Shown here piece after piece: positions 3,233 to 6,886 of a stretch of DNA of 6,929 bases. A program made the translations under genes and the position numbers. The stretch comes from Oscillospiraceae bacterium (GTDB lineage: Bacteria; Bacillota_A; Clostridia; Oscillospirales; Oscillospiraceae): assembly GCA_017408725.1 (NCBI GenBank), contig JAFQUA010000070.1:1-6929 (forward strand), in the 5' to 3' direction. Numbering within the stretch: position 1 is the first letter of the stretch; every line of letters begins with the position of its first letter. The notes beneath the pieces are model-generated. The model did no database searches. It was not told the origin of the DNA and worked only from the letters and a program-made list of their open reading frames with translations.

Positions 3233-3382
3233 CCACCATACAGTAAATATGGCAAAGCAACGGGAAACGTCGGTGTCGGCTTCGCCCACCGGGGCGATAC
3301 AGAGTACTTAAAATCCATCCTCGATAGCAACGAAAACATCAACCTTGGTAACCTATCCTCCGTTTCTCCCGATACTCAATGA
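3233..3382 (+). pseudogene. 3' fragment of an unidentified plus-strand gene
   Basis: An open frame of 49 codons without a start codon runs from just after a TAG (3230-3232) to TGA at 3380-3382. It reads as a protein-like C-terminus (SKYGKATGNVGVGFAHRG, then DTEYLKSILDSNENINLGN), with GC-rich third positions and no rare-codon clustering. A rightward intrinsic terminator begins 9 bases after the stop, as expected behind a real gene end. I do not recognise the family. It overlaps the upstream region of the phosphatase promoter, so the 5' part of the gene is gone. It could be debris at a mobile-element border, or a chance open stretch. Confidence 0.38.
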
Positions 3383-3444: not shown

Positions 3445-4866
3445 TCATTTTATGGCCATAAGCTTTTCCTTATCCGCAGTGATTTCCTTCTTCACTTCCT
3501 CGATCATTACCGCCAGCTTTTCTTCGCATTCTTCACGGGTTTTGGCGTAGACATTGCGGGAGATTCGCTTGCCGTGGGCGTCTCTGGGAGAGTATTTGCC
3601 CTCCCAGAGGTGGTCGTTAAGCTGGTAGATGCCGCCTGTTCCTGCCTTGCGGTATTTGGATTTATACGGCTGGAAGCCGCTTTGATCGGTGTGCTGTTTC
3701 TGTTCGTCCGGCGGCATGGGAGCATCGGTCTTACCGATCTGATGGTCGATCTTCACTGCCGCCTGCTTCTGCATGGTGTCAGTCACATGGGAGTAGATGT
3801 CCAGCGTCGTTGCCGAGGAGATGTGACCGATGATGGTGGAGAGCGTTTTCACATCCATGCCATGCTCCAGCGCCATGGTTGCGAAGGTGTGCCGCAGGTC
3901 ATGGAAACGAACCTTTTTACACTGCGCCCGCTCCAAAGTCTGCTGCATCCGGCGGCGGACGAAGTTGGGCGTCAGAGGACAATCCTCTTTCACAGGCGAC
4001 GGGAACATCCACCGGGATGTCACCGTCGCTTTGTAGTTTTTCAGGATTTCCAGCAGCGAACCGGGCAGAACGATCACTCGAACCGAAGATTTGGTCTTGG
4101 GTTCCGTGATGTGAAGCTCGCCCTTGATGAAGGTTGCGGACTTGGTGATCCGCAACTCGCCAGTCTCCATATTCAGATCATCCCACTGCAAGGCAAGGAT
4201 TTCACCCAGCCGCAGGCCGGTTCCAAGCTCCAGCAGGAAGAGTTCATAGTAGCCGTCCTGCTTCGCCTGGATGAGAAACCGTTGCATTTCCTCCTGAGTG
4301 AGGATATTCATTTCGCCGCTTTTCTTCGGCGGCAGTTTGCAGCCGATGGCAGGATTGATCCGAATCAAGCCTTCCTCCACCGCCTTTTGGAGTGCCGAGC
4401 GGCAATTGGCATGGCACACCCGCACCATCCGGTCGGACAGCCCAGGGCCATACTGTTCCACCCGAATCAGCCTGCCGCTGGTTTTCAGCTTCGCATAGAA
4501 CTGCTGAAGATCACTTTGTGTGAGCTGGTTCAGCGGGATTTTTCCGATCTCCGGGATGATGTGCTTGTAGATCCGATCCTCGTAACCGAGCTGCGTGTTC
4601 AGCCGGAGCTGTGGCTTACAGTAGTTCTGATACCAAAAATCCATCCAGTCACCGAATGGCATATCCGGCTTGCATCGGGTCACAGGCGGCGCATATTTTT
4701 CTCTCAGTTCTTCCAATTTCTTAAGGCACTCTGCCTTGGTTTTGGCAAGAACATTTTTTGTTTTGGGGTTGCCGCTGTCATCGTAGCCGATGACAACTCT
4801 GGCTTCCCAACGACCGTCCGAGCGTTTTCGGACCGTTCCGCTGCCGTATCTTCGTTTCTTCGCCAT
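3445..4866 (-). CDS. Tyrosine site-specific integrase with arm-type domains at both ends
   Basis: This 473-aa phage/ICE-type tyrosine recombinase catalyses strand exchange between attachment sites. Residues 7-55 form an AP2-like arm-DNA-binding domain (YGSGTVRKRSDGRWEARVV). A SAM-like core-binding domain spans about 70-175 and the catalytic domain about 185-370. Active-site residues are all present: Arg219 (GTGLRLGEI), Lys257/259 in the beta-hairpin (EPKTKSS), His322 and Arg325 (HDLRHTFAT), His348 (IIGH) and the nucleophile Tyr358 (LDIYSHV). The family normally ends near residue 380. Here a linker is followed at 405-460 by a second arm-like domain with the same landmarks: GTGG, WEG, AKTREECEEKL. 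ATG at 4866 has AGGAGG 8 nt upstream. It lies 123 bp after the other integrase and probably shares its transcript. Its 3' end faces the likely element border. Confidence 0.95.
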   Translation of the reverse strand: MAKKRRYGSGTVRKRSDGRWEARVVIGYDDSGNPKTKNVLAKTKAECLKKLEELREKYAPPVTRCKPDMPFGDWMDFWYQNYCKPQLRLNTQLGYEDRIYKHIIPEIGKIPLNQLTQSDLQQFYAKLKTSGRLIRVEQYGPGLSDRMVRVCHANCRSALQKAVEEGLIRINPAIGCKLPPKKSGEMNILTQEEMQRFLIQAKQDGYYELFLLELGTGLRLGEILALQWDDLNMETGELRITKSATFIKGELHITEPKTKSSVRVIVLPGSLLEILKNYKATVTSRWMFPSPVKEDCPLTPNFVRRRMQQTLERAQCKKVRFHDLRHTFATMALEHGMDVKTLSTIIGHISSATTLDIYSHVTDTMQKQAAVKIDHQIGKTDAPMPPDEQKQHTDQSGFQPYKSKYRKAGTGGIYQLNDHLWEGKYSPRDAHGKRISRNVYAKTREECEEKLAVMIEEVKKEITADKEKLMAIK

Positions 4867-4989: not shown

Positions 4990-6141
4990 TCACATGATCT
5001 TGTCCAGGAAATTTCCCACGATGCCGGATGCCTTTTTCTGCATCTCCGTGGTCATGTGAGTGTATGTATCCAGCGTGAAGGACGCATTCGTGTGTCCTAA
5101 GATGCCGGACAAGGTTTTCGCATCCACACCGCTGGTCAGGGCATGGGTTGCGAAAGTGTGCCGCAGATCGTGGAAGCGAATGGGCGGCAGTTCCGCGTAC
5201 CGAAGCAAGGTTTTCATGCGGCGGTAGGCTGTTTCCGGCGACAGCGGAAGCTCCGGCACCGTTGGATTGTGGAAGATCCATTCGCTGTAAGATTTCCTTT
5301 TCCGTGCTTTCATGAGTTCCACCGTGCTGGGCGGAAGCTGAATGCTGCGAGTACCTTTTTCGGTTTTCGTTTCACCAACTTTCACACCGCCGCCCTTTCG
5401 ACTTGTGACCGCACGGCGGATCTGCAGCCGCCCAGTCTTTTCATCGAAGTCCTGCCACTTGAGGCCGCAGATCTCACCCCGGCGCATACCGGTGGTCAGC
5501 TCCGTGTAGAAGAAGTCAGACCACACTGCATCCTGCCGCACCACATCCAGAAACTTTTGGAGCTGCGCTTCCGTCAATATATTCTTGGGTGCGTAATTCG
5601 CCTTAGGAATCACCGTGCCGTCGGTAGGATTTTTCACGATGATCCGCTCCTGAACCGCCGCATCCATCGCCTGGTGGAGCATCATATGGATACCCCGAAC
5701 CGAGCTGTCCGAGAGAGCATTTCCCCGCTCGTAGTGCTCGTTGATCCGTCCGTTTTCCCGGAGCCAGTTGTACATCTTCTGCACGTCCGCCGTGGTGACG
5801 GAACCGATTTTCTTATCCCCCATATGCGGCTTTATGTAATTGTTGGCGATCCTGCGGTAACCATCCAGTGTACTTTCCCGGATAGTGAACCGCATCCGCT
5901 CGTCCAGCCACTTGTCCAGCCATCCACCAAGGGTGAGGTTGGAGTTTTCTTTCAGTTCCACATCCCGGAAAGTTTCGATGCTCCTGTGGAGTTTTTCCAT
6001 CAACTCTTTTTGCGTTTTTGCGAACACGCTTCGGTAGATGGGCTTGCCATCTTCCTTGTGTCCCACTACAATTCTGCCTTCCCAGCGGCCGTCACTGCGC
6101 TTTCGCACCAGTCCGTCGCCATCGGGCCGTTTGTTTGCCAT
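4990..6141 (-). CDS. Tyrosine site-specific integrase
   Basis: This is a 383-aa integrase of the usual length for the AP2/SAM-like/catalytic layout. Residues 7-55 form the arm-type DNA-binding domain (RKRSDGRWEGRIVV), about 68-175 the core-binding domain and about 185-370 the catalytic domain. The catalytic set is complete: Arg220 (TTGMRRGEI), Lys259 (ETKTEKGTRS), His324 and Arg327 (HDLRHTFATH), His350 (ILGH) and Tyr360 (LDTYTHM). It is a clear paralogue of the 473-aa integrase but shares only moderate identity, so it is not a recent duplicate. ATG at 6141 is preceded by an excellent RBS, AAAGGAGGT. No strong promoter of its own is visible, so it may be read from upstream or from a promoter within the structured leader region. 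Confidence 0.95.
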   Translation of the reverse strand: MANKRPDGDGLVRKRSDGRWEGRIVVGHKEDGKPIYRSVFAKTQKELMEKLHRSIETFRDVELKENSNLTLGGWLDKWLDERMRFTIRESTLDGYRRIANNYIKPHMGDKKIGSVTTADVQKMYNWLRENGRINEHYERGNALSDSSVRGIHMMLHQAMDAAVQERIIVKNPTDGTVIPKANYAPKNILTEAQLQKFLDVVRQDAVWSDFFYTELTTGMRRGEICGLKWQDFDEKTGRLQIRRAVTSRKGGGVKVGETKTEKGTRSIQLPPSTVELMKARKRKSYSEWIFHNPTVPELPLSPETAYRRMKTLLRYAELPPIRFHDLRHTFATHALTSGVDAKTLSGILGHTNASFTLDTYTHMTTEMQKKASGIVGNFLDKIM

Positions 6142-6200
6142 AGGTCTGACCTCCTTTCTTAGTCACAATACATATCACAAAGCTTTTCGAATAGCTAGCG

Positions 6201-6289
6201 CCAAAGATGCCGAAATTGGGTATTTTTCCGTTAGACCCCCGCAAAGTAAGTTGCGGCTCTAAGGAAAGTCCAATTTCAGACGCCTTTGG
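6201..6289. repeat. Long interrupted hairpin upstream of the integrase gene
   Basis: Nested arms pair along nearly the whole 89 bases. CCAAAG (6201-6206) pairs with CTTTGG (6284-6289), and GAAATTGG (6212-6219) with CCAATTTC (6270-6277). TTTCC (6225-6229) pairs with GGAAA (6263-6267), and TTAGA (6231-6235) with TCTAA (6258-6262). CCGCAA (6239-6244) pairs with TTGCGG (6251-6256) around a 6-nt loop. That gives 30 Watson-Crick pairs interrupted by short internal loops and a bulged G6230. This is far more than expected by chance and no protein is encoded here. It may be part of an RNA or a folded single-strand DNA site. Confidence 0.75.
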
Positions 6290-6362
6290 GCTATTTGGGG
6301 GTCAAAATCAACCCCCACTGGCAAAACCAACAACACTTTCAAAAAGTCGTTGCGGTTCTAAG
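6250..6362 (+). repeat. Imperfect direct repeat GTTGCGGYTCTAAG
   Basis: GTTGCGGCTCTAAG (6250-6263) recurs as GTTGCGGTTCTAAG (6349-6362), 13 of 14 bases identical and 99 bp apart. The first copy is the 3' arm of the long hairpin; the second could pair with the same 5' arm instead (TTAGA and CCGCAA). Alternatives are arm-type integrase binding sites or a duplicated RNA element. Confidence 0.5.
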
Positions 6363-6431
6363 CATATTTCGGCCGGCATTGCCGGACGATGGGATTTGGG
6401 CGGGGAAAAGACGCCCGCCCTTATTCCTGCA

Positions 6432-6456
6432 CCTCGTTCGCAAAAACGAGGTTTTT
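6432..6456 (+). terminator. Intrinsic terminator, rightward, opposite to the genes
   Basis: CCTCGTT (6432-6438) and AACGAGG (6445-6451) form a 7-bp stem with a 6-nt loop, followed by TTTTT (6452-6456) and then AGGTTTT. On the minus strand the hairpin is followed by TGCAGG, so it does not serve the leftward genes. It implies a rightward transcript from the gene-free region. Confidence 0.72.
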
Positions 6457-6465
6457 AGGTTTTGT

Positions 6466-6487
6466 GCATAATCACATGGGATTATGC
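6466..6487. repeat. 8-bp inverted repeat over the stop codon of the HTH gene
   Basis: GCATAATC (6466-6473) and GATTATGC (6480-6487) are perfect arms with a 6-nt loop; the right arm covers the TAA stop (6482-6484). There is no T-run on either side, so it is not a standard terminator. It may stabilise the mRNA end or bind a protein. Confidence 0.45.
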
Positions 6488-6886
6488 CACCTGTTCTTCG
6501 AGCTTTTTTCGCTCGTTTTCCCGCATCTGCTGCTCCACATGATACCGCTTCGCTTCCTCGATGGGGCGAATGGTGAAGCAAAGGTTGCCGTTGCGCTTCA
6601 GTCCGCCCTTACCCCAGACCGTAGTCGGTTCCGTGTAGATGAGATGTTTTTCCTCAAGCCCATGGACATACTTCATGACCGTATTCTTTGTTTTACCAAT
6701 CGCTTCTCCAATGGTTTCATAGGAGGGATAGCACTGGTAGGTTTCACGATCCTCACACCGCATCAGGTAAGCATAGGTTGCGATCTCACCTGTTGACAGC
6801 CCCAGAGAGAAGATCTCGTTGGGCAGAGGAAAGTAGTTCCGCTTCGCACTGCGGGACGGATACTGTTCGTATTTCAAGATCTTCAC
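6482..6886 (-). CDS. Helix-turn-helix (winged-helix) protein of a mobile element, Rep-like
   Basis: The 134-aa product has a replication-initiator/phage-type winged helix. The N-terminal MKILKYEQYPSRSAKRNYF is followed by PLPNEIFSLGLSTGEIATYAYL (first helices). The HTH then follows: CYPSYETIGEAIGKTKNTVMKYVHGLEEKHLI at 52-83, with recognition helix about 66-78 and a wing to about 105. The C-terminus is a charged helix (EEAKRYHVEQQMRENERKKLEEQ). Such short proteins occur near integrases in clostridial integrative elements and are usually annotated as helix-turn-helix or replication initiator proteins; the exact role is not known. The start is uncertain. GTG at 6886 lies right on the RBS, whereas TTG at 6877 has AAGGGAG 8 nt upstream. 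The frame is also open to the right edge, so a still earlier start cannot be excluded. Confidence 0.78.
   Translation of the reverse strand: MKILKYEQYPSRSAKRNYFPLPNEIFSLGLSTGEIATYAYLMRCEDRETYQCYPSYETIGEAIGKTKNTVMKYVHGLEEKHLIYTEPTTVWGKGGLKRNGNLCFTIRPIEEAKRYHVEQQMRENERKKLEEQVA

Follow-up and report, generated by a model that had tools for sequence, protein, structure and literature searches.

The region at 6201-6456 of the window, which is the whole 6929-base stretch analyzed here, very probably holds an origin of transfer (oriT) such as MobP3-family relaxases use. It lies in a putative integrative element with no relaxase gene in its visible part (a probable iOriT). As the earlier note had stated, the flanking genes all run leftward. 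On the minus strand are the gene for an HTH_36 protein at 6482-6886 (Pfam HTH_36, 49.7 bits), the tyrosine integrase Int1 at 4990-6141 (Pfam Phage_integrase, 96.1 bits), and the tyrosine integrase Int2 at 3445-4866 (Pfam Phage_integrase, 90.9 bits). The gap between HTH_36 and Int1 is 340 bases long and contains no recognized gene. Beside Int2, at 3269-3379 on the plus strand, is what is left of the 3' part of a DUF3892 gene, which may mark an end of the element; tblastn with a query that is DUF3892 by Pfam aligned 37 residues at 76% (E 2e-13).

Related loci were collected by a profile search of a genome collection with the HTH_36 protein, from which the best 80 of 264 relatives were kept; with two further loci from viral contigs, the set comprised 82 loci. 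The results showed a recurrent pattern after the HTH_36 genes: GCAGGnnAAAG, a GC-rich hairpin of changing sequence, and a conserved hairpin around GGCAnnGCC. This pattern occupies 6369-6436 of the window on the minus strand, the predicted oriT core element, made up of the core, stem I, and stem II. Stem I, the variable hairpin beside the core, spans 6398-6420 (6398-6404 pairs with 6414-6420), and stem II, the conserved hairpin, spans 6369-6389. The window is one of the 48 sequences of the covariance model R1, and its score of 56.2 bits (E 3.4e-15) is therefore not independent. In the MAFFT alignment of the 48 loci, the covariation score was 0.343, compared with 0.114 after shuffling (reached by 0 of 500) and at most 0.106 with the pairing partner slid. 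Paired cells made up 81.7% of the alignment versus 66.6% when shuffled, and all four Watson-Crick pair types were seen at several positions of stem I. R1 matched 74 of the 82 related loci as well as the window at E < 1e-7; 27 of these 74 lie outside the model, some of them close to its members. R1 starts between -200 and +567 relative to the HTH_36 stop, with a median of 24. The covarying base pairs that the earlier note looked for in homologues are thus present, and so is the region in related elements. Judged by alignment, 6369-6436 belongs to a conserved, covarying family of DNA elements. A blastn search of 6145-6481 against plasmids and phages gave no result, and neither did scans of viral contigs with Int1 and with a DNA pattern.

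The predicted nick core, CTTATTCCTG/C, lies at 6420-6430 on the plus strand. It was identified from the family core together with the MOBP consensus, and the slash marks the putative nick between 6429 and 6430. The whole plus-strand core of the window reads CTTATTCCTGC. On this strand, the family core is mostly CTTTnnCCTGC (75 loci); it is TATCCTGC in 11 of the 75 loci, and the rare variant of the window occurs in 2. The window departs from the family core and the MOBP consensus in having an A at the fourth base and TTCCTG in place of ATCCTG. TATCCTG was found in 20 of 38 relaxase-linked copies, 20 of 54 relaxase-less copies, and 11 of 75 HTH_36 loci, where the window has ATTCCTGC. The MOBP nick consensus is (C/T)ATCCTG(C/T), and an inverted repeat precedes it on the 5' side (PMC3772185, in the excerpt available). 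Because the element resembles this consensus with its 5' inverted repeat, we infer the nicked strand and place the nick between 6429 and 6430, with the HTH_36 side entering first. A terminator-like stem with T5 stands directly 3' of the predicted nick (6431-6456, plus strand).

The relaxase of one related locus, L020, matched NCBIfam MobP3 with 342 bits (cut-off 150) and also Pfam MobL. Across 150 genomes of one family, 34 of the 40 MobP3 genes above the cut-off were preceded on their own strand by R1, at 575-1044 bp upstream; the other 6 had no R1 match, under stricter filters with which weak matches may be missed. No R1 within 2 kb of these 40 genes was in the wrong place or orientation. In 19 genomes holding relaxase-less loci, MobP3 was found 10 times, in 5 of the genomes, with R1 605-1044 bp upstream on the same strand in 9 cases; the tenth gene starts at contig base 23. 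The two genome sets share one genome (G017), whose five MobP3 genes are counted among both the 10 and the 40. A tblastn search of a plasmid collection returned three records with a MobP3-like gene, all with an R1 match. They are a Subdoligranulum plasmid (43.9 bits), an Oscillospiraceae MB08-C2-2 plasmid (33.0 bits; here R1 and mobP3 are on opposite strands), and Exiguobacterium pEYLC1.2 of the class Bacilli (24.9 bits, directly ahead of a CopG gene, mobP3, and a virD4-like gene). The ribbon-helix-helix (RHH) partner of locus L025 is RHH_1 (21.6 bits, cut-off 20.5), and that of L020 had no significant Pfam match. The occurrence of R1 upstream of MobP3 genes across genomes and plasmids is as expected of an origin of transfer, and in layout and core the element appears to resemble MOBP origins of transfer. 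The earlier suggestion of a cis element for transfer is therefore well supported: in many genomes, MobP3 relaxase genes are preceded by these two covarying hairpins and their MOBP-like core. Counting against an oriT are the rare core of the window without an exact ATCCTG, the MobP3 genes without R1, and the plasmid copy opposite to mobP3. Our literature search, which covered sources other than subscription papers and oriTDB, returned neither an oriT for NCBIfam MobP3 relaxases nor the R1 oriT family among the matches listed.

Many copies of R1 have no relaxase gene beside them. Within the 6929 bases of the window, an integrase and an oriT-type element are both present and no relaxase gene was recognized; since the window shows 6.9 kb of the element, a relaxase gene could lie beyond 6929. 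The 75 R1-bearing sequences were sorted with tblastn queries for relaxase (from L020), RHH (two proteins), and integrases. A relaxase lay downstream in 32, and RHH without relaxase was present in 9. Only an integrase was recognized in 28, including the window, and a diverged RHH gene could hide among these 28. Six showed no relaxase, RHH, or integrase, some of them cut by contig ends. One locus (L043) had a relaxase match and no R1 match. In the 150 genomes, 54 of the 88 strong R1 matches (E up to 5e-8) had no MobP3 within 2 kb. The firm count is at least 47 of 88, which leaves out 7 with a contig end at most 2 kb away; one of these (L146) has a MobP3 fragment there. Downstream of 35 of the 54, a tyrosine integrase lay within 2.5 kb, and HTH_36 lay upstream of 22. 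No MobP3 at all was seen in 14 of the 19 genomes with relaxase-less loci, which are draft genomes, and the other 5 hold MobP3. In the 19 genomes, the PF03432 relaxases nearest to a relaxase-less oriT on the same contig were separated from it by about 44 kb in G008 and 64 kb in G017. Among the matches listed for the 150 genomes, three contigs carried such an oriT and, at a distance of 17-18 kb, a PF03432 relaxase that could be part of one larger element with it. The stems of 20 relaxase-less loci alone still covary (0.349 versus 0.147 shuffled, 0 of 500; at most 0.201 when slid). This argues against decay, and part of the variation may predate the loss of the relaxase. Relaxase-less oriTs were not generally like the relaxase-linked oriTs of the same genome (0.685 versus 0.650, 24 relaxase-less copies).

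The region could instead be chiefly a replication origin, or an operator bound by the HTH_36 protein, that is used after excision and is a mere companion of the mobility genes. We consider this unlikely. R1 stands beside HTH_36 in 74 loci and the window, though the loci were found through HTH_36; PHROGs links HTH_36 weakly to replication initiation proteins (35.4 bits at best), and direct repeats lie nearby. However, in the 150 genomes HTH_36 was detected beside only 22 of the 54 relaxase-less R1 matches, and it is not annotated beside R1 in two plasmids (L168 and L169). MobP3 genes have R1 in 34 of 40 cases, and the core resembles a nick site. It is less probable still that Int or Xis binds the hairpins and repeats to assist excision: these lie next to the integrase gene, 35 of the 54 relaxase-less R1 matches have an integrase within 2.5 kb downstream, and repeats lie between the oriT and the start of Int1, but R1 also occurs upstream of MobP3 genes and on plasmids, and the possible element end past Int2, the DUF3892 remnant, is about 3 kb off.

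The hairpins that the earlier note saw in 6201-6456 proved to be real. The plus strand folded with -105.9 kcal/mol, compared with -74.0 ± 4.9 for shuffled sequences (z -6.5; 0 of 200 shuffles as good). The predicted fold consists of a long stem at 6201-6289, more hairpins, and a final stem at 6431-6452 followed by T5. The minus strand folds equally well (z -6.3), so a rightward RNA is not favored by the fold. With DNA folding parameters, z was -4.9 for 6366-6457 on the plus strand and only -2.0 for 6369-6436 alone on the minus strand, where 10 of 200 shuffles were as good. Wobble pairs read on the HTH_36 strand comprised 39 G.T and 19 A.C cells in stem I versus 1 G.T and 9 A.C in stem II (72 distinct rows of 75). 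The two stems disagree in this asymmetry, so no strand can be named.

The same note had proposed an element-borne antisense noncoding RNA with a terminator of its own. Such an RNA would run rightward across the start of Int1, from a promoter near 6044-6072 to a terminator at 6431-6456, and control the integrase. We find this highly improbable. Its premises are the strong plus-strand fold, the T5 stem at 6431-6456, and a promoter-like site at 6044-6072 that scores 10 of 12 and is the only one placed to drive a rightward RNA. However, of 22 homologous integrase genes examined, 2 retain the promoter-like site, and by a strict rule 2 of 75 related loci have the T5 terminator; both times these are the window and its close relative L004. 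Promoter-like and terminator-like sites are no commoner than in shuffled sequences. The stem and T5 of the terminator exist as described, but this is one of 9 such sites in the window, versus 7.3 ± 3.2 in shuffles. The other strand folds equally, the comparison with Rfam gave no match for the region up to E 1, and a tRNA/tmRNA search found none. Since the two strands fold alike and conservation of promoter and terminator on one strand went no further than these 2 of 22 and 2 of 75, the antisense RNA was rejected.

Reading the region as an oriT permits comparison with known transfer origins. In the oriTs of the staphylococcal pWBG749 family, a variable IR2 lies beside the core and is accompanied by IR3, and the RHH protein SmpO is encoded between oriT and relaxase (PMC8136818, in the part available). 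SmpO sites lie in an IR2 arm and at a second place, and oriT mimics occur on relaxase-less plasmids (same excerpt of PMC8136818). As far as that excerpt describes the pWBG749 family (SmpO/SmpP), it has in common with R1 the order conserved hairpin, variable hairpin, core, an RHH gene between oriT and relaxase, and relaxase-less carriers of oriT, moved in trans in the pWBG749 case. pWBG749 also has a sequence like hairpin II, GTCTGGCAAAGCCAGAC. By analogy, the clostridial site probably works like the pWBG749 oriT. However, R1 run on pWBG749 27800-28450 with filters off reached 8.8 bits at best, on hairpin II only. The core differs, the pWBG749 relaxase is annotated as MobP2 and not MobP3, its oriT and relaxase gene stand in a different relative orientation, and it lies on plasmids, whereas R1 lies on integrative elements. 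A match in sequence and structure over core, IR2, and IR3 was not found, and membership in the pWBG749 (MobP2) oriT family was rejected. We also asked whether the stem I motif recurs downstream, as it does in pWBG749 at ossA/ossB. The mean longest shared string was 7.07, compared with 6.21 for the hairpins of other loci and 5.91 for shuffled ones (72 of 75 loci with enough sequence). Recurrence was strong in some relatives; in the window it did not reach significance (LCS 7, shuffled p 0.26).

MOBP oriTs of the RP4/VirD2 type resemble R1 in their nick core, (C/T)ATCCTG(C/T), and in the inverted repeat directly 5' of it (PMC3772185, same excerpt). Relative to what the excerpt describes, the window differs by its ATTCCTGC, its relatives have MobP3/MobL-like relaxases, and R1 has a second conserved hairpin behind the first. 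The Bacillus plasmid pLS20 (MOBL; PMC5313138, partial text) is alike in its Firmicutes relaxase group; the L020 relaxase matches Pfam MobL. In a comparison by eye with that partial text, the nick and repeat sequences of pLS20 were unlike R1 (PMC5313138).

The proposed mechanism begins with excision of the element as a circle by Int1 and Int2. A MobP3 relaxase from another element, probably with its RHH partner, would recognize stems I and II and make a plus-strand nick at CTTATTCCTG/C. With the relaxase bound to it, the 5' end would then lead into the recipient, the HTH_36 side first and the integrases last. The hairpins would work as DNA, serving for recognition and folding up the single strand that is transferred. 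We infer that the window copy functions as an oriT, depends on a helper, and is mobile, and that the repeats at 6201-6362 have a role in this. Known examples of iOriTs are mostly proteobacterial. The window differs from them in its Clostridia group, its double integrase, and its MobP3-type oriT. It shares with them an integrated element with an oriT and no relaxase of its own in view (PMC11389934, in the excerpt available). The iOriT class, in which the relaxase is supplied by another element, was already known (same excerpt of PMC11389934).

We lean towards a broader view, in which gut Clostridia would hold a large guild of relaxase-less integrative elements with the order (HTH_36)-oriT-Int1-Int2 plus cargo, some of it perhaps anti-phage. 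These elements would have one covarying oriT family in common with MobP3 relaxases, outnumber the relaxase-bearing copies, and move on borrowed MobP3. Loss of the relaxase and then of the RHH partner would be readable stepwise from living gene orders. Since their stems vary, oriT sites are difficult to detect by sequence. With a covariance model for MobP3 oriTs, genome data would show the mobilizable integrative elements of uncultured gut bacteria and their candidate helpers, which makes gene movement in these bacteria directly testable. The data suggest that many apparently immobile islands in gut bacteria are hitchhikers.

The long hairpin at 6201-6289, the first of five, is a candidate site for an accessory protein (fold z -4.6; partly alignable in 8 related loci). 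A direct repeat occurs at 6250-6263 within this hairpin (GTTGCGGCTCTAAG, plus strand) and at 6349-6362 (GTTGCGGTTCTAAG, plus strand), and both copies are putative protein-binding sites. Read on the minus strand, CTTAGARCCGCAAC, a pattern chosen after being seen, occurs twice in 6201-6362, compared with 0.07 times by chance (1 of 200 shuffles had as many). In L004, both copies read CCACAAC; such parallel change would be expected of a binding site or of gene conversion. Between oriT and integrase, direct repeats reached p <= 0.05 in 7 of 24 loci, including the window and related pairs. Upstream of Int1 (about 6145-6190, minus strand), a TTGTGATATGTATTGTG-like stretch recurs in relatives as TGTGGTA.TGTTGTG and is perhaps the integrase promoter.

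Gene order reads as if elements of the HTH_36-oriT-Int1-Int2 kind end at DUF3892 genes. A 3' piece of DUF3892 adjoins Int2 both in the window (3269-3379) and in L066 (9459-9596), and L004 has an intact DUF3892 gene 2.7 kb past Int2. The protein at 1000-1989 of the window contains a short GGADGPT stretch, whose match to oxaloacetate decarboxylase beta covers 21 residues of the latter and scores 24.1 bits, below the Pfam cut-off of 31.6. The HTH_36 gene of L003 is 97% identical to that of the window; from about 22 bases past its stop (1064-1085) the sequence is wholly different, and the oriT is absent. In a public protein of 221 aa (P0042), the start of HTH_36 is fused to an integrase, as if a deletion took out the whole oriT gap. 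One genome (G051; L116, L118, L126, L143, and L151) has nine R1 matches, of which several form pairs spaced 1.4-4.9 kb; neither MobP3 nor HTH_36 nor an integrase was detected near them. The oriT-integrase module is flanked by a HerA-like ATPase and a retron RT-Toprim in L010 (1377-3407 and 9558-11264) and by a type IV restriction enzyme in L020 (734-3883), and these flanking genes look like anti-phage cargo.
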